From Glomus cerebriforme (taxonomy: Eukaryota; Glomeromycota; Glomeromycetes; Glomerales; Glomeraceae): 64,000 bases of DNA. The notes beneath the pieces are model-generated. The model ran no database searches, was not told where the DNA came from, and worked only from the letters and a program-made list of their open reading frames with translations. A program made the translations under genes and the position numbers. The stretch's first letter is position 1. Each line of letters starts with the position of its first letter. Below, in pieces: positions 47,122 through 63,274 of the stretch. The stretch covers positions 210,135 to 274,134 of the forward strand of contig QKYT01000070.1 in assembly GCA_003550305.1 (NCBI GenBank), read 5' to 3'.

Positions 47122-49785
47122 TTAATAATATTGTTTCAAATTAAAGGTTGAAGAAGAAGAAGAAGAAGAAAAAGAATATGACGATGATGATGATAATGTT
47201 ATAGAAGATGAGATAATTGTTGGTGAAATGGAATTAGAAGAATAACACATCCTAACGTTAAGTGCTTCAAGAACAGCAAAATAAGGAGAAACAATACCAA
47301 ATGTTTGGTATGATGTTATCCACTTTGCATGAAGAATACCAAGAGCTTTTCCTTTTTTATCTACAATACTTGCTCCTGAATCACCACATTCAAACTCTCC
47401 GAGTTCAAATCTAAATGCTAATTGACGATCAAACCATTCAACGGGATAGCATTTCTTGCGGGTTTGACGAATTTCTGAGTCCAAATGTGACTTCATATAT
47501 CCAACAAAAATTTTTTGATCTGTATTGTTATAGCATGGAACATGTTTTTCCATTGCTAGCTTTTTTGCATTTTTAATACTCTCATTTGTCAGGTTACAGG
47601 CAATAGCTTGATCAGTAGGAAGCAATTGTCCAAGAGTAAGACCTGTAGTTCGTCCTACTTTAAAAACCCTAGTATCATAATTAAAATTCTTTAACTCATC
47701 ATAAGTATAAGTACCTTCCAAACAAGTAGAAAATCCGGCATCCTCGAAGTAATTTGAAGGAATTGTAAATTTTGTTGGGCATAATGTACGATTTCCATTA
47801 TTAAAGTCACAAAATCCAGCATCAATACCATACTTTTTATTGTTAATTATGAAGTTTTCTCGCATACCTCTTACATATGTAGCCAAAGTTGAATCCTTTT
47901 TCATTGCTTTTGTTAATTTTCTTTCTTCAATTTCAATATCATCGGTGATTGACTCAATATCATCCTCTTTTATTTCTGGTTCTTTCAGCAATCTACGTAA
48001 TTCAACTAACCTTTTTTTTGGTTCAAACAAATCATTATATGAGGGTTGATAAATGGCAATATCTTTTCTTGAATCTGATTTATTAAATTTGAGTACATGT
48101 TCACATGAAATTATGCCAACCTTACATGATAAGTTGTCATATACAACAGCACTAAGAGTTCCAGTTATATTTTCTTCTTCTGATCCTACGCCTATACTTG
48201 ACCCCAATTTAACATCTCCTTGATAACGTCGACAAGAGTCTATACCTGAACCAGCACAAGGCACTGCAGCACATGCTTCAATAACATCTACTGGAAATCC
48301 ACAAATTTCCTTTGGAAATATACCATCACATCCACGACGTAAAATACCTTTCTGACGAACATATAATATAATTGCTGGTATTTCAGTTAACTGTCCTTTA
48401 ATTCGCTTATATCCAGTACTTATACCTACTAAATTATAATGTGCTTCACGAAATGATATTCCCAATTCATTATCCAAAGCTTCATCGAATTTTTCCTTTA
48501 AATCCTGTGGAATTTCTATTGAACTTGGCAATGGATCAATTGTATTAGCAAACTTTGCTTCTTCTGCTATAAAATGGATTATTTGACCATCTTCAATTAT
48601 TTCTGTCTTGGTATATGGATGATGTAAACCACGTGTAATCACATAGACATTCCATGTTGTACTTTCTGCAATATGATCCTCAATAAGTCGACCCCAAAAT
48701 ATATCTACAATATCATCCTTCATATACAGTTCACAAAGGCGAGCCTCAAGCACATCACTCCAACATATGGAATTTCTTATTACTTCTTCTATATTCAAAA
48801 GAATGTCAGTAACAAAAATTTTTTAAATTATAAAATGTATGCTCAAACGAAACATTATTTTAAGTATCTATTGTATCATTACCTGAGTCATTATTGAAAT
48901 CATTCGCTAAAAAAAAATAAATAAAAATTAATAATTAAGTTGCAACAAATTGGACTAGTGAGAATGAAATAATTGATAATTTCATTCAAGAAATGTAATT
49001 AAAAATTAATAATTCAAATGATATAGTATTCTGAAAAACTTACAAGGAAAAAGAGTTGAAGATGGAATGGCGAAGCCATCAAATATTGATTCAGCTATTA
49101 TAAATTATATTTTTTGAATTAATAAGCTAGTTTATTTCAATATGGTATAAATTTTTACGAAAATAGACTAAATTTAATAATTACCTATTGACAGTTCATC
49201 AACAGAGGAATCAGAGTAATCAGTGTCTTCTTCTTCCATTTGTTCATAAGATTTATATGTAGAAATTAAATTATTTATAGAAATCAATTGTTCATTTTTA
49301 TGACCAGGAATGGATTTAATAGGGGTTGTTTTTGTTTTAAGTTCATAAGGTTTAAAAGTGGAATAGTCATTTCTATTTCTTTTTGGTTTATAAATATAAT
49401 CTGGGTATAAATTTTTATGTTTTTTACGAAGTATTGAAGCTAATTCTTTAAAAAATTTCTGATAGCGTTCTGGTAGTTCTTCCCATAATATTTTACTGAC
49501 TTTCTTTGAAAGTGGCAATAATTTTTGTTTATTAATTCTATGTTTATCACAAAATTTTCCAATAATATATAAAAAGCCAAATTTATTAAGTAGATTGGTA
49601 TAAATTATATTGGAATTAGGGGGTCGTTTGATTTTTGTACTTGATTTTTGGTCCGGTAAATAGTCTTTCGTTGTTGGCATTCCATTTTTATCGATTGCCT
49701 CTCTAAGTGATGATAAAAGATTATTCAATTCATCTTTATTCTCATTATTGACTTGTATAGCTAATTCATTCAAATTTTGGGTCAT
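47122..49785 (-). CDS. Cassette A: predicted fusion of MATA-HMG box with NAL1-like serine protease (780 residues)
   Basis: Four exons join in phase: 49785-49185 (HMG), 49094-49044, 48906-48883 and 48788-47122 (protease), all with GT..AG introns of 90-137 nt. The HMG part has IKRPPNSNIIYTNLLNKFGF to LYPDYIYKPKRN (about residues 52-136). The protease part begins EEVIRNSICWSDVLEARL and has no ATG there, so a separate gene is unlikely. It carries NLVGISTGYKRIKGQ and PAIILYVRQKGI, then the putative triad: His in SCEHVLKFN, Asp in YGIDAGFC, Ser in CGDSGASIVD. KVGRTTGLTLGQ is also typical of NAL1-like trypsin-fold proteins. It ends in a poly-Ser tail. Prediction: a DNA-bound serine protease or protease-derived regulator in the nucleus. 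If splicing fails, the HMG frame alone ends at 49174 (203 residues). Confidence 0.72.
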
Positions 49786-50324
49786 TTCTTTTTAACTATT
49801 TTTTTTTAAAAAAAATAAATCTTGAGATCAATATTTCAAAAAATTCATGAAAGTAGCAAAGAATATTTATAGAAAAATTCGATATAAATAGAAATTATTG
49901 AACGTAATTTTTTATTAAAAAAAAGAATAAAAATATCTTATATTGCATTTTTTTTTATTGATTAATATCTTTACAAAAAAATGAATATCATTTTAAAAAT
50001 AACGATTACTCGTGAAAATATGAGCACCAAATTTGGACATGTTTCACAAAGCCTCGGAGTTTTGATCTTCATTATTACGCAGAAAATTTTCATTGTTTAA
50101 ATTTATATATTTATGGAAATTTTTTTAAATTATTTTCTAATTAGAAGTAACGGAAATTTTCTACATTAAAAAAATTTTGGAATACTTTCAAAGAATACTC
50201 TAATTATTCTATTTTTAACGTGATAATAGAAATTTCTTGTGATCATTTTTAATCTTTTGACTAAATCAATTTTTATTTAGTCAAGTTAAAGTAGAAGGTT
50301 AAATATTTATCTTGAAGTTTTCAA

Positions 50325-50400
50325 TGACGTCATGAAGAAAATTTTTTTTTTAAAAAAAATCAATTAGCGGAAATTCTTTAGAGCGAATAAACTTGATATG
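50325..50400 (-). promoter_or_regulatory. CRE-like site and T/A tract upstream of cassette A
   Basis: TGACGTCA (50325-50332), then T-run/A-run, then TCAATTAGCGGAAATTCTTT. It lies 540 bp before the start; cassette B has the same block at 534 bp with TGATGTCA. Confidence 0.5.
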
Positions 50401-50633
50401 TACCAAGATTTCAAAACTTTCTCCGGTTGACGTTACAAAAAATTTTAGATGCTTATGTTTTTGTTTGATTGTGAGTGTGGAAAGGACATGAATAATGTCA
50501 ATTTAAAATATAATAACATAAGACTCTTATATCATAAGTAAGTACAAAAATTATCAGTTTACCTGGTAACTTTTAAAAAAAGTCCATGACAAATTTCATG
50601 TGGTCTTATTATGATAAAGCACCGTGCACATTT

Positions 50634-50697
50634 GTTTCACCGCCTTTTGATTAACGTCCATTGAAAAAAATCAAGAATGATTGTTCGGTTATTCCAA
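50634..50697 (-). promoter_or_regulatory. GTTTCACCG block upstream of cassette A
   Basis: GTTTCACCGCC, TTAACGTCCATTGAAAAAAA, then AATGATTGTTCGGTTATTCC. Conserved in order with the blocks upstream of the other HMG units. Confidence 0.5.
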
Positions 50698-50981
50698 GGT
50701 ATATACAAAAAATATTTCTTGTCTAGCTTCATGAATTGTAGTGGAGTGCAGACTTTTGATAATGATATGGTCTCACGTCATTTACGTAATTCTACATAGT
50801 TCTGGCGTGTGAACTAAAAAACTAATATTTAATATTAAATCTATTTATTTTATTCATTTATAATAAATAAATTTTGAAACTTTAAATGCAGAGTTCACAT
50901 TAAAAATTTATATAAAGTGTAAAATTCAAGGGTACAAAGTTTATGTGAAGTCTATAGCATTTCATGCCAAAAGCTTATAAC

Positions 50982-51305
50982 TAGTGCTTTGATCCGAGTC
51001 CGGTTTATCCGGATAAAATCCGGATAAAACCGATAATCCGCTGTTATATCCGCGGTTTTATCCGATTTTCGACGGATTTTATCCGGATCGTTGGGATTCG
51101 GATAATTCAAAATATTTCGGGAACTAATGGTCAGATTTCTATGATTCATAGTTTGTTCGAAAGCCCTTAATGTCAGGAATATGTTTATAGTACTGAAATT
51201 TTAAAAATAATTGATCCTAACCCGAATTTTATTAAATAACTATTTTTATCCGGATAGAATAATTATTTTATCCGGATAACGGTTTTTATCCGGATCAAAG
51301 CACTA
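50982..51305. mobile_element. hAT-type MITE (324 bp) with perfect 8-bp target duplication
   Basis: Both ends read TAGTGCTTTGATCCG (15 of 15 inverted). Flanks CTTATAAC at 50974-50981 and 51306-51313 are identical. Both sides of the interior are rich in TATCCGGATAAAA words, giving strong self-complementarity. No transposase frame. Confidence 0.88.
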
Positions 51306-52755
51306 CTTATAACAAATTTTAAAAAAACCATATGGACGTTACTGATGTACGTCACGTGACGCTTAAAAAATGACGTAACTATAAAAAGTTCAAATGTAAT
51401 TTATTTTTTCATTTTTTTTTTTTTAGTTTTTTGGGAGGTGAGGTATATGATTGGTTAATACTTGAATGGATTTACCCAAACTAAGCATTGTTAGGGTTTC
51501 GTCTGTATTAATAGATTAAATCACTCGTATGACATACAGTATAGGGGAATCTTACGTTTGTATTGATATGTAAATTTTTTTTACATTCGTTTAATAAAGT
51601 TTTGCATTTCTGAAAAAAAATGAAGTTATCATATAATGTTGAAAAAAGTATAAATGCAGTTTGTACTATTCAATATACGGTTTATTATCTGCATGTATAG
51701 CTATTTATACAAGCAGACTATTGAATTTTAATAATTTGCCCAAACAAAAAAATGCAGGTGATGAGAAAGAATATTCAGGTTATGATTTAAAATAATGTAA
51801 TATTCATTAAACTTTTATTTTATAGATTCCATGAAAATTGATTTTACTAAACTTTAATATTAATTCTCAAGGTAAATTCTAAAATCATTTCAATATATTT
51901 GTTGTCGTACAATATTACCGTTCAATATTGAACAGCAATAGGGAATCATCATGATCAATATTAGTCCGTGCGATAATTAATAATAATAACCAACATAAAT
52001 ATAAAATTTATAAAATTATTCATCTTAAAAAATCAACCAAAATTTAATAAAAATTATCATTATTATTAAAATTTAAGTGGCTCCGGTGACACGTGACATT
52101 TCGTGACATTTAGAAACAATTACTCGATCTGATTAGCATCGTACAGTACCTGTATATGAATTATTATAAAATATAATTGTTAAACCCTAATTTATAATAA
52201 AAATTTAATATAAGAATTTTATATCGTAAAAGAACTTAAATAACGGATAATTTTCTGAATTCATCATCCGTCACAAACTCACAATTAATCTGACGGATAA
52301 TTCAAATGATTTATAATAACAATAAAATTATGATTAACGTTTTTTATGTATCTTTATTCACATTAAAATTATATATTTTTTCGTAACATTAAATAAATAT
52401 TTAAAATAAAAAAATAGAAGTTTTGAAACTGACAAGGTTGCAGTACACTTTCCTGAAGGCATGGATAATTTCTGAAAACCTTGAGTGGAATTATCATAAT
52501 GTGGGCTAAATTTTCAGAAACAACCTTTCAGAAAGTTCCTGCTTCTAATGAGCAAGTATAAACTTAAGTTTTTATCAATTTTTATTAAAATTATGATATA
52601 ACAAATTTTTAGATTATTTAAATACAATTCTATGCAACTCTATAAAGAAACTTTAATATTAAAATACATAATAAGAGATAAGTTAAAAATCATCTTGCGA
52701 ATTATATTTTAAAATTAAGGGTTGGAGAAGAAGAAGAAGAAGAAAGAGAAGAATA

Positions 52756-55386
52756 TTATGATGATGATGATGATGATAATGTTAAAGAAGATGGGATAAC
52801 TGTTGGTGAAATGGAATTAGAAGATAAATAAACGTTTACATTGAGTGCTTCAAGAATAGCAAAAAAAGGAGAAGCAATACCAAATGTTTGGTACGGGGTT
52901 ATCCACTTTGCATGAAGGATACCAAGAGCTTTTCCTTTCTCATCCACAACACTTGCTCCTGAATCACCACATTCAAAATCTCCAGATTCAAATTTAAATG
53001 CTAATTGACGATCAAACCATTCAATAGGATAGCATTTCTTACGAGTTTGACGAATTTCCGAGTCCAAATGTGACTTCATATAGCCAACAAAAATTTTTTG
53101 AACATCCTTTTCATAACAACGAACATTTTTTTCCATTGGCAAATTTTTGGCATTTTTAATACTTTCATTTGTTAGATTATAGGCAATAGTCTGATCAGTA
53201 GGAAGCAATTGTCCAAGTGTAAGACCTGTAGTTCGTCCTACTTTAAAGACCTGAGTATTATAATTAAATTTCTTTAATTCATCGTAAGTATAAGTTCCTT
53301 TCAAACAATTAGAAAATTTGGCATCTTTGAAGTAACTATTTGAAGGAATAGGAAAATTTTTTGAATCTAATTTGCGATTTTCATTATTAAAGACACAAAA
53401 TCCAGCATTAATCCCATAATTTTTATTATTAACTTTGGAAAGGAAATTTTTTCGCATTCCTTTTATATGAGTAGCTAAAATTGGATTTTGAATTTCTGCA
53501 ATTTCAAGTTTTCTTTGCGTGTCTTCAATTTCATCCTTGTTTTCACTTTCTTCTGAATCTTTTGATAACTCAAACTTCTTCAAATCCTCATATGAAGGTT
53601 GGTAAAAAACATTTTTTTTAGAATCATAATCATTAAATTTGAATATATGTTCACATGAGATAATACCGATCTGGCTATTATCATTATCGTAAGCAACAGC
53701 AGCAGCATCGAGAGTTCCAGTTGTATTTTCTTCTTCTGATCCTATGCCTATACTTGACCCCAATTTAACATCACCTTGATTACGTTGATAATAATCTACA
53801 CCTAAACCGGTACAGGGTGTTGCAGCACATGCTTCAATAACATCTACTGGGAATCCACAAATTTCCTTTGGAAATATACCATCACATCCACGACGTAAAA
53901 TACCTTTCTGACGAACATATAATATAATTGCTGGTGTTTCAGTTAACTGTCCTTTAATTCGCTTATACCCAGTACCTATACCTACTAAATTATAATGTGC
54001 TTCACGAAATGATATTCCCAATTCATTATCCAAAGCTTTATCAAATGTTTCTTTTAAATCCTGTGGAATTTTTTTTATTGAACTTGACAATGGATCATTA
54101 GTATTAACAAAATTTGCTTCTTCTGCTATAAAATGAATTACTTGACCATCTTCAATCATTTCTGTCTTGGCATATGGATGGTGTAAACCACGTGTAATCA
54201 CATAGACATTCCAAGTTGTACTTTCTGCAATATGATTCTCAATAAGTCGACCCCAAAATATATCTACAATATCATCCTTCATATACAGTTCACAGAGGCG
54301 AGTCTCAAGCGCATCACTCCAAAATATGGAATTTCTTATTACTTCTTCTATATTAATAAATTCAAAAGAATGTTGATAAAAGATTTTTTTTTAAATTATG
54401 ATAAATACAGTACAGTATGTTCAAACAAAAACATGATCTAATTGTTTATAATATTATTACCTGAATTATTATTAAAATCATTCGCTAAAAAATAAATAAA
54501 TAAATAAAAAAGGAATTAATAATTTGGTTACAATATAAATACATATATCTTAATAAAATCCATATTCTGAAAACTTACAAAGAGAAGGAGTTAAAAGTGC
54601 ATTTGATTGATATAATGATGTAATGTTGAAGTCATTATGTGAATATAAATATAATTCATTTTGATTTTCTGGAATATTAAATATATTGGCTATTATAATT
54701 TATATTTTTGAATTAATAAGCTAGTTTATTTCAATATATATTATATAATATTTTATCGAAAACAAATAATTACCTGCGATGCTAAGAGGAATAATTGGAA
54801 GGGTTTCATCATACATTGGCAGTTCATCAACAGAATAATCATTGTCTTCTTCTCCTATTTGTTCATAAGATTCATTTGTAGAAATCAATTGTTCATTTTT
54901 ATGACCAGGAATGGATTTATTAGGTGTTGTTTTTGTTTTAAGTTCATAAGGTTTAAAAGTGGAATGGTCATTTATTTTTCTGTTTGGTTTATAAATATAA
55001 TCTGGGTATAAATTTTTATGTTCTTTACTAACTTCCGAAGCTAATCCTTTAAAAAATTTCTGATAGCGTTCTGGTAGTTCTTCCCATAATATTTTACTGA
55101 CTTTCTTTGAAAGTGGCATTAATTTTTGTTTATTAATTCTATGTTTATCACAAAATTTTCTAATAATATCTAAAAAGCCAAATCTATTAAGTTGATTGGT
55201 ATAAATTATATTGGAGTTAGGGGGTCGTTTGATTTTTGTACTTGATTTTTGGTCCCGTAATAAGTCTTTCGCTGTTGGCATTTCATTTTTATCGATTGCC
55301 TCTCTAAGTGATGATAAAAGTTTATTCAGTTCATCTTTATTCTCATTATTGACTTGTATAGCTAATTCATTCAAATTTTGGGTCAT
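52756..55386 (-). CDS. Cassette B: predicted HMG-box/NAL1-like protease fusion with Asn at the putative catalytic Asp (779 residues)
   Basis: Exons 55386-54774, 54689-54579, 54484-54461 and 54347-52756 join in phase with GT..AG introns of 84-113 nt. Exons 1, 3 and 4 align with cassette A; exon 2 is longer (111 against 51 nt) and encodes a different linker. The HMG box is IKRPPNSNIIYTNQLNRFGF to LYPDYIYKPNRK. The first in-frame ATG of the protease exon (54282-54280) lies 22 codons inside conserved sequence (EEVIRNSIFWSDALETRL), which favours the fusion. His (SCEHIFKFN) and Ser (CGDSGASVVD) are kept, but the third putative triad position reads YGINAGFC, Asp to Asn, by one G-to-A change (codon 53407-53409). 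Activity is therefore doubtful. It ends in a Ser-rich tail. Confidence 0.7.
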
Positions 55387-55919
55387 TTCTTTTTAACTAT
55401 TTTTTTTTAACAAAAATAAATCTTGAGATCAATATTTCAAAAAATTCATGAGAATATTTATAGAAAAAATTCGATCTATAAATAGACATTATTGAACGTA
55501 ATTTTTTATTTAAAAAAAAGAATAAAAATATCTTATATTGCATTTTTTTTATTCGATTAACATCTTTACAAAAAACGAATATCATTTTAAAAATAACGCA
55601 TTACTCTTGAAAGTCTGATCACCAAATTTGGACGTTTCACAAAGCCTCGGAGTTTTGATGATCATTATTACGCAGAAAATTTTCATTGTTTAAATATATA
55701 TATTTATGGAAATTTTTTTAAATTATTTTAATTATTTTCTAATTAGAAGTAACGGAAGTATTAAAAAATTTTTGGAATACTTTCAAAGAATACTCTAATT
55801 ATTCTATTTTTAACGTGATAATAGAAATTTTTTGTGATCATTTTTAATCTTTTGACTAAATCAATTTTTATTTAGTCAAGTTAACGTAGAAGGTTAAATA
55901 TTTATCTTGAAGTTTTCAA

Positions 55920-55995
55920 TGATGTCATGAAGAATTTTTTTTTTAAAAAAAAAATCAATTAGCGGAAATTCTTTAGAGCGAATAAACTTGACATG
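55920..55995 (-). promoter_or_regulatory. CRE-like variant and T/A tract upstream of cassette B
   Basis: TGATGTCA, T8A9, TCAATTAGCGGAAATTCTTT. It differs from the cassette A module mainly by the C-to-T change that destroys the CpG of the palindrome. Confidence 0.4.
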
Positions 55996-57248
55996 TACCG
56001 AGATTTTCAAAACTTTCTCCGGTTGACATTACAAAAAATTAATAGATGCTTATGTTTTTGTTTGATTGTGAGTGTGGAAAGGACATGAATAATGTCAATT
56101 TAAATTATAATAACATATATTGTAAGACTCTTATAGTCTTATTATAAGGAAGTACAAAAATGATCAGTTTACCTGGTAACTTTTAAAAAAAGGGCATGAC
56201 AAATTTCATGTGAACTTATTGGATAAACAAAGCACCATGCACATTGGTTTCACCGCCTTTCAATGATGAAAAAATCAAGGATGATTGTTTCGGTTATTTC
56301 GGTTATTCCAAGGTATAAAATATATTTCATTGTTTAAATAATCTGTTATTTTAGTTCAATCAATCATTTATCCATTACGGTTTTCTAATAATTCTACTAA
56401 GAAACAACAGAATATTCATTTTTCTAACTTGGAATACTCTCAAAGAATACTCTATTTAATGCGACACATTTTTATTTATTAAAAGAGATATCATCGATAT
56501 TTAAAGGGATATTTTCATTTGTATTCATGCTTATAATCTATATCCTCCGATTACTTCACTTGTAGTACAATATTTAGGAAATGAACCATTCTTGTAAGAA
56601 GAAACGAAACTTGTTCATCTAATTTAATTCAACTGTTCTATAGAAAGATCTTAACAGTTATAATAATATAAAAATTAGTAGTAATTAAATTTTATTGTGA
56701 ACAGAAATTTATCAGGGATATAATAAATTCGTACTTATCGTTCCTTTTTCGACATTGTTCGTTTCCATCAATGTCATCTTTCCCACTTTTGATTTTCTAA
56801 TTTTTTAAAAAGAATAATTTAGGAGTATTTTAGGATTGGTTAGGAAGGGAATAAATTTTTTTTACATTTTTAAAAATTTATCTTTTCAAGATGAATGATA
56901 TTTATCGAGAATATAATATTAAATAAACAAATTTCTAAAGATGTCTAAAGTTACCATATAATGTTTGAAAAAAGTACAAATCCAGTTTGTTATATTATTT
57001 GTTATTCAATGATATTACGCAAAAAAAATAACATAATTTGCAAATAAAAAATTAATTTATAAAATTACCTATCTTAAAAAATTATCCAAAATTTAAAATG
57101 CTTAAAGATCGTATTCTAAATCATCTAACTCTTTGTATTTTAATTGAAAATTTGATTATTAAAATTTAGGGACAAAATCGATCTTAATCACATTTTATCG
57201 ATTTAATTTGCAATATGTAAAATATTCTAATAAGTAATATACTAATAC

Positions 57249-58339: not shown

Positions 58340-60560
58340 TTTATCGGTCGTTGGTTGCTTTTTTTTTTTTAAAAAAAAAAAAAGAATGGAAGAAATAAGA
58401 AGATTTGATCTACTTTGTCTTTTGATGACTTGAGATCGATTTCTCAAAAAATTCATGAAAGTAGAAAAGAACCATATTTATAGAAAAAAAATCGATCTAT
58501 AAATAAACATAATAAAACGCAATTTTTTATCATTTAAAACAATACGTTTAATAAGAATAATTTATACATGCATTTTTTATTCTATCTTGCAAAAAAATGA
58601 ATCTCATAATATGCGTTGAAAATCTTACCCAATCACATGACTCCAAACTGAATTTGGACGTTTCACACATTCGGAGTTTGATCGATCCTCATTATTACAC
58701 AGAAAATTTTCATTGTTTAAATTTAAATTTTAATGACTCCATATGGAAATTTTTTTTACATTTCTTCTAATCAGAAATAACGGACATTTCTATATTAAAA
58801 AAGTTTTGGAATGCTTTCAAAGAATAACTATTCTATTTTTAACGTGAGAACAAATAGAAGTTTCTCAATCTTTTGGCTAAGCTAATTTTTACTTAGTCAG
58901 ACGAAGATTTGAATGTATAATGAAAATGCTAAAGAATATTGTTAAAAGTTTTTAATGACGTCACGATTATTTTTTTTTTTATAAAAAATCAATTTATATT
59001 TTAAGGTCATATGTGTACCAAGGTTTTTTATATCAATGCAACCACTGTTATAAAAATATTTAATCATAAAAGAAATTTATATATAAATATTTTTGTTTTT
59101 TTAATCTATGATTTATATATAATTCATTATATATTCTCGGAGTTGTTGTCGTTGAAATATAATGATTTAGAAAAACTGTTTTTGTCGTAGAAAATGCATG
59201 AAAAATTTCTATAGAATCACCATTCACCGTCTTTTAATGATTAACGCCCGTTGAAAAGAATCAAAAATGATTGTTTCGGTTAATATATTTTCATTGTTTA
59301 AATAACTTAATTTTGTCTTGCACAATCAATCGTTTACCTAATACGATTTTCTAAAATTTTACTACGAAACAACAGAATATTTCATGTTTCTGACTTAGAA
59401 TACTCTCAAAGAATACTCTATTTTAATGTAAAAGGAAACATTAAACAATATCATCGATACTTAAAGATATTGTAATCTAAATCCCCTATAATTTTTATGA
59501 TTACTTCTAAAGAGCGTCTATGACGAGTGCGGATTCAATAACAGATTTACAATATATTACTTCAAAATATTTAATAATTAACCGTTCTACTGTAGTAAAG
59601 GACATGTATGTAACGAAACTTGTTCATCTATTTTAGCAAAAAAAAATTTCATTTACCAAACGATTCAAAAATTCGATCCGTTTCAGACTGTGATACAAAA
59701 AATGTGAGAAAAGAAAATTTTTCGCTTCACCAAACAAAAATTAGTATAGCTTGTCGCAGCAACTTTCAATATCAGGTGCTAAAATTATATTTTTAGAAAA
59801 ACGTAATTCTGGCCGGACAAATTTAAGATTTTACAGTATAAAGGATATCATTAGGAATTATGTGATTCCTTTTTATACTATATTACTATATATTATGACT
59901 AACTTCATTTTTCTAATGACGGTTTCATTTATTATAGTATAACAAAAAGCTAAAAAAAAAAATTAATATCCTATATACAATTGAGATATTATAACTATAT
60001 TATATCTAGCGATTGGATTTAAAATTTTTAGATACGTTTTAAAAAAGAGGATAATAAATTTGTTGCGGCTGAGTCTCGGGCTAGTAAAAGTTAAATGTTT
60101 TTATGAGCAATATGATTAAGAACTTTATCAAGGATATAAACTCTAGTAAAAATATTTTTCTATAATATTTTTCCATCAAACTTGGGAGCACTTCCATTTT
60201 AATTCCTTTAATCCTAATTTTTTGCTTTTAGTAAAAGTGTATAGTAGTATAATCAACTAAGCAAATGCTACTAAAGACTATAATGCATTTACTGAATTTA
60301 TTTTATAGGTTTCTTTTCATTATTTTATCGAAATTATAATATTAAAAGAAAAATTAACCATATATTGTTTGAAAAAATACAGGTATCATTCAATATGCAA
60401 TTATTATTCAATAATAATATGTTGATGCAAATAAAGTAATAATAAATAAACCTGGCACATTATTTCTATATACATAAATTGCAATATAAAAATTAATTTA
60501 TCAATTTAAGATTTAATATTTTTAAAATTCTTCCCTTAGATTTTGTTTCTCTTTGGATTA
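58340..60560. other. Upstream region of HMG copy 5 and 3' flank of cassette C
   Basis: No gene. Perfect TGACGTCA at 58956-58963 (617 bp upstream) and the GTTTCACCG-type block at 59218-59282 (TTCACCGTCTTTTAATGATT, TTAACGCCCGTTGAAAAG, AAAAATGATTGTTTCGGTTA). The rest is A+T-rich. Confidence 0.5.
58956..58963. promoter_or_regulatory. Perfect CRE-like palindrome upstream of HMG copy 5
   Basis: TGACGTCA followed by a T-run and AATCAATTTA, equivalent to the modules upstream of cassettes A and B. Confidence 0.4.
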
Positions 60561-62336
60561 TTATAGATAATCTAAAAATGAAAATAAGTATAAATATTAT
60601 TACAAAATTAGTATTAAAATAATAAATAAAATTACCGTTATAATCTAAATCCATAAAATCATCGATATCTTTTTCATAATCATTTGAAATTTCTACAAAA
60701 AAATTGATTTAATAACATTATATTCATTGATTTGAATTATATGATTGATATAATTATAACTTACTTGAAGAAATGACCATTGGTGTAATTGGATTGGAAG
60801 ATAAGTAAACGTTTACATTGAGTGCTTCAAGAATGGCAAAAAAAGGAGAAGCAATACCAAATGTTTGGTACGAGGTTATCCAATTTGCATGAAGGATACC
60901 AAGAGCTTTTCCTTTCTCATCTACAACACTTGCTCCTGAATCACCACATTCAAAATCTCCAGATTTAAATTTAAATGCTAATTGACGATCAAACCATTCA
61001 ACAGGATAGCATTTCTTACGGGTTTGACGAATTTCTGAGTCCAAATGTGACTTCATATAACCAACAAAAATTTTTTGATCTGTATTATTATAACATGGAA
61101 CATATTTTTCCATTGCTAACTTTTTTGCATTTTTAATACTCTCATTTGTTAGGTTACAGGCAATAGCTTGATCAGTAGGAAGCAACTGTCCAAGAGTAAG
61201 ACCTGTAGTTCGTCCTACTTTAAAAACCTGAGTGTTATAATTAAAATTCTTTAATTCACCATAAGTATAAGTACCTTCCAAACAAGTAGAAAATCCGGCA
61301 TCCTTGAAGTAACTTGAAGGAATTGAAAATTTTTTTGGATCTAATTTGCGATTTTCATTATTAAAGACACAAAATCCAGCATCAATCCCATATTTTCTAT
61401 TATTAACCTTTGAAATGAAATTTTTTCGCATTCCTTTTATTTGAGTAGCTAAAATAGGATTTCGACTTTCTGCGAGTTCAAGTTTTCTTTGCATTTCTTC
61501 AATTTCATCTTTATATTCACTTTCTTCTGAATCTTTTGATAACTCAAGGTAGCCTTTCAACTTCTTCCTTGGTTCAAACAAATCCTCATATGAAGGTTGG
61601 TAAACAACATTTTTTTTAGAATCTTTTTCATTAAATTTGAATATATGTTCACATGAAATAATACCAATTTGACCATTATCATTATCATAAGCAACAACAC
61701 TAAGAGTTCCAGTTGTATTTTCTTCTTCTGATCCTATGCCTATACTTGATCCCAATTTAACATCTCTTTGATAACGTTGACAATAATCTACACCTAAACC
61801 CGTACAGGGTGTTGCAGTACATGCTTCAATAACATCTACTGGGAATCCACAAATTTCCTTTGGAAATATACCATCACATCCACGACGTAAAATACCTTTC
61901 TGACGAACATATAATATAATTGCTGGTGTTTCAGTTAACTGGCCTTTAATTCGCTTATACCCAGTACCTATGCCTACTAGATTATAATGTGCTTCACGAA
62001 ATGATGATCCCAGTTCATTATCCAAAGCTTCATCAAATTTTTCCTTTAAATCCTGTGGAATTTTTATTGAACTTGGCAATGGATCAATTGTATTAATAAA
62101 CTTTGCTTCTTCTGCTATAAAATGAATTACTTGACCATCAATTATTTCTGTCTTGGCATATGGATGGTGTAAACCATGTGTAATCACATAGATATTCCAA
62201 GTTGTATTTCCTGCAAGGAGATCCTCAATGAGTCGACCCCAAAATATATCTACAATATCATCATTCATATATAACTCACAGAGGAGAGCCTCAAGCGTAT
62301 CACTCAAAAATATGGAATTTCTTATTATTTCTTCTT
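60561..62336 (-). CDS. Cassette C: NAL1-like serine protease frame with extra 3' exons
   Basis: The conserved coding part begins after an AG at 62337 (EEEIIRNSIFLSDTLEALL) and the main exon ends at 60765 with a GTAAGT donor. Two more exons, 60692-60636 and 60571-60561, follow in phase and give an acidic end (ISNDYEKDIDDFMDLDYN, DYL) where A and B have poly-Ser. The putative triad is complete: His in SCEHIFKFN, Asp in YGIDAGFC, Ser in CGDSGASVVD, with KVGRTTGLTLGQ between. The first ATG is at 62268-62266, inside conserved sequence. The linker exon's acceptor is AA instead of AG (62461-62462), so the join to the HMG frame appears broken; the frame may be translated alone from 62268 or be decaying. 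Confidence 0.6.
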
Positions 62337-62554
62337 CTATATTAATAAATTCAAAAGGATGTTGATAGCAAAAATTTTAAATTGTGAAATATATGTTCAA
62401 ATAAAAACATTATTTATTTGTTTACTGTATTATTACCTGAATTATTATTAAAATTATTCGTTAGAAAAATAAAAAAAAAAAAAGAATTAGTAGTTAAATT
62501 GCAATAATAAATACATACAATTTTTTTTTTCATATGATCAATATATTGAAAATC

Positions 62555-63274
62555 TTACAAAAAACATTTGTTTGACCAATTACTATCGTAACAAAACTTT
62601 AAAAATTTTATACCATATTTTGCTTTGCTTATCGATAATGGAGCTGGTGGAGGTCTTTTATCAATTATTAACGAATAATTATCAGAATAATCTAATCCAT
62701 CATCACAAGTTTCTTCATCAGCCTCATCATTTGTAAAAATCAATTTTTCATTTTCGTGATCAGGAATGGACCGAACAGGTGTCATTTTTGATTTAGGTTC
62801 ATATGATTCATATTTAGTTTCTTTTCTTTCTTTTCTTTGTGGTGAATACTTATAATCTGGATACAATTCTCTGTGTATCAAACTAACTTCTAAAGCTAAT
62901 TCAAGAAAAAATTTCTGATGTTGATCTGACAATTCTCCCCATAAGATTTTACTGACTTTATTTGCAAGTGGTACTAAGGTTTGTTTATTAATTCTATGTT
63001 TATCACAGAATTCTCTGATGATTTCTAATAAGCCAGATTTGGCAAGCTGATTTGTATAAATTAAATTTGAATTTGGAGATCGTTTGATTTTTGTTTTTGT
63101 ACCTGGTTTTTGGTCCCGTAATAAGTCTTTCGCTGTTGGCATTTCATTATTATCAATTGCCTTTCTAAATTTGCTTAAAAGATTATTCAACTCATTTCTA
63201 TTCTCAGAAAGGACTTGCGAAACTAAATCATCTTGCGAAACTAACTCGTTCAAATTAGTTAACTTTTGCGTCAT
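62555..63274 (-). CDS. Cassette C: MATA-type HMG-box protein
   Basis: Frame of 239 residues, the longest HMG frame of the array. The N-terminus has an extra DDLVSQVLSENRNELNN-type stretch, then NEMPTAKDLLRDQKPG. The box is IKRSPNSNLIYTNQLAKSGL to LYPDYKYSPQRKE; RSPNSN replaces RPPNSN, a divergence at a usually invariant Pro. The tail keeps SKMTPVRSIPDHENEKLI and an acidic patch. It reads through the place where A and B have intron 1 and ends ...NKCFL at a GTAAG that could be a donor, but that would leave phase 2, not phase 1. With the downstream acceptor lost, this copy probably makes an HMG-only protein. Confidence 0.7.
   Translation of the reverse strand: MTQKLTNLNELVSQDDLVSQVLSENRNELNNLLSKFRKAIDNNEMPTAKDLLRDQKPGTKTKIKRSPNSNLIYTNQLAKSGLLEIIREFCDKHRINKQTLVPLANKVSKILWGELSDQHQKFFLELALEVSLIHRELYPDYKYSPQRKERKETKYESYEPKSKMTPVRSIPDHENEKLIFTNDEADEETCDDGLDYSDNYSLIIDKRPPPAPLSISKAKYGIKFLKFCYDSNWSNKCFL

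Follow-up and report, generated by a model that had tools for sequence, protein, structure and literature searches.

Tandem genes of Glomus cerebriforme appear to join an HMG box to a NAL1-like serine protease

Proteins uniting an HMG box and a protease are already known. GCNA/ACRC proteins hold both, together with a disordered part, in one chain (PMC5098910, PMC13092972; these and the other papers cited here are described from the excerpts that were available). Their protease, however, is a SprT zinc metalloprotease with a HEXXH motif, their two-helix HMG box lies after it, and there is usually one gene per species. A different protease, NAL1 (NARROW LEAF 1; rice, with ZmNAL1a in maize), shows ~18% identity to the fungal protease described below in structural alignment, and we know of no NAL1 with an HMG box. 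Plant NAL1 proteins cut TOPLESS-type corepressors, changing transcription (PMC12915138). Here, genes joining an HMG box to a NAL1-like serine protease are described from contig QKYT01000070.1 of the arbuscular mycorrhizal fungus Glomus cerebriforme, within a window (the whole stretch analysed) of 64,000 nt; the genome searched amounts to 112.5 Mb. The reality of the joined genes is confirmed at the sequence level. The literature searched, outside which most subscription papers lie, yielded no account of a NAL1-like serine protease fused to an HMG box, and the combination would be a new variation on the known pairing of HMG box and protease. The preliminary description of this DNA, made from its letters and open reading frames, had held that no protein of this architecture was described. 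This goes too far, given GCNA/ACRC and the trypsin C-termini of Crinkler-RHS-type proteins (see below). Membership in GCNA/ACRC was itself rejected: HEXXH is absent from copies B and A (P0001 and P0002), and no SprT match was found in them (Pfam, E<=0.1, as for the Crinkler header and switch modules below).

Two tandem cassettes, copies A and B, had been recognised from the outset, with the exon coordinates, introns, phase-1 junctions, and small exons found here. In positions of the window, they are composed as follows:

55386-54774, minus strand: copy A exon 1, HMG-box exon, with ATG at 55386 and a phase-1 GT donor
54689-54579, minus strand: copy A exon 2, linker of 111 nt, phase 1-1
54484-54461, minus strand: copy A exon 3, micro-exon of 24 nt, phase 1-1
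54347-52757, minus strand: copy A exon 4, NAL1-like protease, with His 53649-53647, Ser 52962-52960, and Asn (AAT, 53409-53407) at the probable triad Asp
49785-49185, minus strand: copy B exon 1, HMG-box exon, with ATG at 49785
49094-49044, minus strand: copy B exon 2, linker of 51 nt, phase 1-1
48906-48883, minus strand: copy B exon 3, micro-exon of 24 nt, phase 1-1
48788-47122, minus strand: copy B exon 4, NAL1-like protease with intact triad, His 48099-48097, Asp 47823-47821, and Ser 47379-47377

All introns of both copies are GT..AG, and all junctions are in phase 1. The joined proteins, 779 (A) and 780 (B) residues long as originally calculated, are identical to the public models P0002 (C1645_817348, 779 aa) and P0001 (C1645_817347, 780 aa), respectively, which means that an annotation pipeline arrived at the same join. 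The genes are already catalogued as hypothetical protein, both models bearing the UniRef name HMG box domain-containing. In the protease frame, which had been said to be devoid of ATG in its first 20 or more codons, the first Met is codon 22, downstream of a conserved WSDxLExRLCELY motif. Standalone protease relatives (P0031; loci L015/L016) start a few residues ahead of this motif. Adjacent HMG and protease genes might nevertheless have been wrongly joined, by the preliminary description and the gene caller alike, and the HMG-only paralogues of the same array, as well as an HMG frame able to end by reading into intron 1, would fit such an artefact. It is made very improbable by the lack of an in-frame ATG for a full-length protease, by the conserved phase-1 splice sites and micro-exon, by fused models in three other species, and by a third copy, C, whose frame is kept after the loss of both small exons. 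A chance join of the two frames also appears unlikely, because the micro-exon is identical at 21/24 positions between A and B while the introns reach 67/80, 55/94, and 69/94 ungapped positions, a 15-nt phase-1 version occurs on another contig, and the fused models recur in the three other species. Two separate genes are made less likely by the lack of a start codon, by the conservation of the phase-1 joins, and by these same models. In each of A, B, and C, a frame carried beyond the exon 1 donor hits a stop within ~20 codons, so that intron retention could yield an HMG-only product.

The protease part was identified by its fold. In a model of the joined protein, a check proposed earlier, it came out poorly (mean predicted local distance difference test, pLDDT, of 60.1) and was therefore folded alone; the folding alignments held 36 and 51 hand-chosen sequences. 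The resulting model displays the overall NAL1 fold, as had been suspected from the letters, and its closest structural relative among the matches listed is NAL1. No FAM111 chain figures among the best 50 matches listed per structural search, which does not exclude a relationship. Two helices (255-267, 274-296) stand between the His and the Asp of the putative active site, the Asp being assigned by its near-invariance and its place on model strand 317-328. The His-Asp-Ser triad is present in 61 of 63 proteins, namely those of the 72 matched proteins with all three alignment columns filled; P0029 and copy A depart from it. The triad, named at first as a feature of NAL1-like proteins, is intact in copy B, and copy C has it as well. 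In copy A, Asn occupies a column holding Asp in 66/68 aligned proteins, a change that had gone unnoticed, and the protease frame is still open. Copy A could indicate the direction of travel towards an inactive scaffold or transcription factor, in which the HMG box would do the work and the protease fold would offer a surface for binding. Its open frame would suit this idea, but a triad residue is lost in 2 of the 63 rows only, and constraint is lower on the HMG exons than on the protease, so that such a scaffold is scarcely credible.

The HMG box, too, is borne out by structure comparison of the predicted model, whose fold was matched to solved DNA-bound boxes, those of SOX/SRY being the closest among solved structures; an NCBIfam scan yielded no match. 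The array box is related to other HMG genes of the genome, a likeness to the Rhizophagus MATA-HMG genes that is not an assignment to the MATA-HMG class. Unlike the fusions, these genes are given no C-terminal protease in the portions of the literature searched. At least 127 HMG_box matches are present in the genome, and the array HMG exon used as a query has 17 matching places, with E values of 1e-20 or better at 10. An HMG expansion in Rhizophagus was reportedly the subject of Riley et al. in 2014. Expansion of HMG and tyrosine-kinase-like genes has been published for Rhizophagus irregularis (PMC4219462).

The HMG-protease pairing is found in the predicted proteins of four species, three besides Glomus cerebriforme, in answer to an early suggestion that related fungi be searched. 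Rhizophagus clarus P0006 shows 58% identity over 95% of the joined query, its HMG part being recognised by alignment to the query and inspection by eye, with no Pfam match. Both parts are present in R. irregularis P0005 and R. diaphanus P0004. The named matches of the last homologue search belong to Glomeromycotina or Endogonales, as recognised from their names; Rhizophagus cerebriforme is a synonym of Glomus cerebriforme. From 856 candidates, a search with residues 1-225 returned P0001 and P0002 only; it failed to retrieve P0004, P0005, and P0006, although these contain that region too, hence it is not evidence of absence. The linker of P0004 harbors an added CCHC zinc knuckle (25.3 bits vs. 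a cut-off of 20.8). In GCNA, a zinc finger and a disordered region accompany the HMG box and the protease, and FAM111A is an intracellular trypsin-like protease that acts on chromatin, displacing proteins from it (a likeness by description that does not imply common descent). These features would suit a protease removing DNA-protein crosslinks or chromatin proteins in the manner of GCNA/ACRC, SPRTN, or FAM111A. However, the closest structural relative among the matches listed is NAL1, whose known targets are corepressors, and the genes vary and occur in several copies, which is not the habit of a housekeeping repair enzyme; a role of this kind is quite unlikely.

Copies A and B are part of a minus-strand array of six HMG exons, three of which (A, B, and C) are followed by a protease. 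Copy C (60765-63274), a third HMG-protease gene, was first recognised in this analysis; the three HMG-only paralogues had also escaped notice. The remaining features of the array are:

63274-62614, minus strand: copy C exon 1, HMG-box exon, with a phase-1 donor at 62613
62336-60765, minus strand: copy C protease exon with intact triad, His 61647-61645, Asp 61383-61381, and Ser 60939-60937
from 60692, minus strand: possible further exon(s) of copy C, adding a C-terminal tail
58339-57896, minus strand: copy F, HMG-only paralogue
44039-43608, minus strand: copy D, HMG-only paralogue
41694-41098, minus strand: copy E, HMG-only paralogue with a plain stop codon at its end

In copy C, the phase-1 donor of exon 1 leads in frame to the phase-1 acceptor of the protease exon. 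A remnant of the 24-nt exon is visible, its acceptor AG being gone, and exons 2 and 3 are unusable as exons. Since the junctions share phase 1, the small exons can drop out harmlessly. No protease match was found in the 1.5-2.1 kb downstream of each of copies D, E, and F, nor elsewhere near them in the window. A fourth protease copy is located at G000:C839:275451-276614, with a run of N directly upstream (L043:2714-9901), and the array may hold further fusions.

In 150-base bins, A and B are 92-99% identical over six bins upstream and into exon 1, then 94-95% over three, and identity falls to 66-80% over the end of exon 1, the introns, and the small exons. Their upstream region (49800-50593, 55400-56203) is conserved at 92-99% per bin, and a 96-base part of it recurs at 67% upstream of the HMG-only copy F (58661-58756). 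For HMG exons, the nonsynonymous (dN) and synonymous (dS) divergences are 0.065 and 0.047 between A and B, and 0.288 and 0.478 between A and C; for protease exons, they are 0.128 and 0.310 (A/B), and 0.069 and 0.177 (A/C). On this comparison, the front half of copy A is nearest B and its back half nearest C, a pattern of the kind left by gene conversion or unequal exchange. Nonsynonymous and synonymous changes between A and B stand at 29:5 in the HMG exon vs. 144:85 in the protease (Fisher P 0.011). The HMG part would be under relaxed or diversifying change, positive selection being not proven, as synonymous changes are so few. An HMG tree of 13 rows gave no resolution (1/10 branches starred).

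Beyond the HMG box, a large diversity of N-terminal partners is observed. Precomputed Pfam annotation of 60 homologue matches places a kinase on 5, Sel1 repeats on 4 (one of which also has a kinase), and the Crinkler header PF20147 on 8; P0034 carries PF00255, which we take to be glutathione peroxidase, and P0025 a Sacsin domain. In Glomus cerebriforme, locus C526 (L044:4915-5506) has a different phase-1 upstream exon, a 15-nt phase-1 micro-exon, and a protease exon, joined in frame in this analysis; its upstream frame bears a weak likeness to Hsp70/actin-like ATPases (MreB 16.6 of 27 bits, HSP70 12.1 of 20.6). At locus C79 (L013, G000:C79:15958-20511), which adjoins a run of N, Sel1-like repeats, recognised by eye, run straight into the protease in a single exon. 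The micro-exon linker peptide recurs in the Sel1-linked P0014 and, less exactly, in the kinase-linked P0007 (by eye). P0003 (C1645_842076) is identical to copy C over blocks of 406 and 48 residues, behind an unrelated N-terminus. It is possibly a recent swap or an assembly chimera, an artefact being possible because its contig measures 3379 bases.

A tree of the protease was built from 61/77 sequences, leaving out those with <380 aligned residues or <400 bits and, by hand, P0028, P0029, P0057, and P0071. Partner labels of all groups require 20 changes on it, the minimum possible being 7, and a count as low is reached in 1/200 shuffles. The HMG label needs four changes, which the starred branches force, vs. 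a mean of 5.8 in shuffles, 7/500 of which are as low as four. P0006 groups with the kinase-linked P0011 (100/96), apart from P0004/P0005, and the fork with copy B is unresolved. The four changes may represent one gain and later losses. With this range of N-terminal partners, the protease family is not defined by the HMG box, which is one address among several.

The same NAL1-like protease thus stands C-terminal to a Crinkler header in Glomeromycotina, in the manner of Crinkler-RHS-type (CR/CRN) proteins. Trypsin C-termini are listed for the latter in a paper relaying a 2016 survey, and a role in conflict between organisms has been proposed for these proteins (PMC5289972). CRNs have been suggested to recombine their C-terminal parts, and RiCRN1, a Crinkler of R. 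irregularis, is found in nuclear bodies when expressed in plants (PMC6131194). A Pfam scan finds PF20147 in P0035, P0036, and P0038 and does not find it in P0001, P0002, P0004, P0005, and P0006; membership of the HMG fusions among Crinkler effectors was consequently rejected. L018 (G000:C414:237564-241694) is a distant protease relative (34%), and the segment preceding it looks, by eye, like the middle part of the relatives linked to a Crinkler header, with a weak DUF4441 match (17.4 of 24 bits). A RAMA-like segment suspected by eye in these relatives has no Pfam RAMA match, and no claim is made of it.

Such diversity would also suit a conflict or recognition module, the protease being the effector, released or aimed by swappable N-termini (HMG box, kinase, Sel1 repeats, Hsp70-like, Crinkler header) that serve as sensors or baits. 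In such a module, the HMG box would act as an HMG-family decoy, this family being expanded, or would sense nucleic acid of foreign origin. The scatter of partner labels over the protease tree, the higher nonsynonymous share in the HMG exon, and the Crinkler-RHS-type precedent point this way. However, the HMG fusions have no Crinkler header, and no switch module (NTPase or the like) was found in them. The labels are more clustered than in shuffles, indicating that exchange is not free, and the HMG pattern, which rests on five synonymous changes, is explicable by relaxed constraint or gene conversion. We consider this module, the chief competitor of the explanation favoured below, unlikely, though worth weighing. 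Similarly tentative, and doubtful at present, is a broader proposal, in which a portable cassette (a phase-1 micro-exon and the NAL1-like protease exon) would have been spliced repeatedly behind Glomeromycotina multi-gene families: HMG boxes, tyrosine-kinase-like kinases, Sel1 repeats, Hsp70-like ATPases, and Crinkler headers. The partner families of the protease other than HMG boxes and tyrosine-kinase-like kinases are also expanded in R. irregularis. The outcome would be a combinatorial set of proteases, each tagged with an address, which might work as a recognition or incompatibility system of the fungi, with the HMG fusions as its DNA-addressed or HMG-decoy branch and copies like A as inactive partners.

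The explanation we favour, and hold to be somewhat probable, is that these are real multi-exon genes of an arbuscular mycorrhizal fungus encoding an HMG-box DNA-binding domain, a probably disordered linker, and a NAL1-type trypsin-fold serine protease. They would have arisen by the placing of a portable C-terminal protease module, often with a small phase-1 linker exon, behind members of the tandem HMG array, so tethering the protease to chromatin. This explanation builds on the gene structure on the DNA, the fold-based identity of the domains, the state of the triad, the pairing in four species, and the varied partners of one protease family; it supposes transcription as one unit and a product that reaches the nucleus, binds DNA, and cleaves proteins. 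The HMG box would hold DNA and concentrate the protease at chromatin, where it would cut DNA-associated proteins, the simplest reading being that it trims regulators on chromatin close to the sites it binds. Transcriptional corepressors are the leading candidate targets, because plant NAL1 proteins degrade those of the TOPLESS type. Copy A would be a weak enzyme or a competing, non-cutting partner.

Several observations weigh against this explanation. The Pfam HMG-box family PF00505 (cut-off 25.4 bits) is matched below cut-off by the copy B exon (15.0 bits), P0004 (16.9), and P0005 (24.2), and not at all by copy A or P0006. Of 60 protease relatives, 55 go unmatched by an HMG profile made from the remaining five, so DNA tethering is not general in the family; the five matches are circular, the profile being made from these very proteins, and the 55 non-matches are informative for close relatives only. 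Copy A has lost its probable catalytic Asp, and the HMG exons are weakly constrained (dN/dS 0.60-0.63 vs. C, besides the 29:5 between A and B). Among the homologue-search matches, no public model joins the HMG exon of copy C to its protease, although in this database, clustered at 90%, one could sit in the two-member cluster of P0003. The original interpretation of a chromatin-tethered protease or protease-derived regulator is, overall, partly supported.

If the favoured explanation is right, these genes would show exon shuffling in a eukaryote while it is under way, with phase-matched linker exons still kept in tandem genes and partners differing on one protease family within one genus. It would also predict a DNA-delivered protease in fungi whose partners include most land plants. 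Since plant NAL1 acts on nuclear corepressors, a DNA-addressed fungal relative would offer a direct test of whether this fold generally edits transcription complexes.

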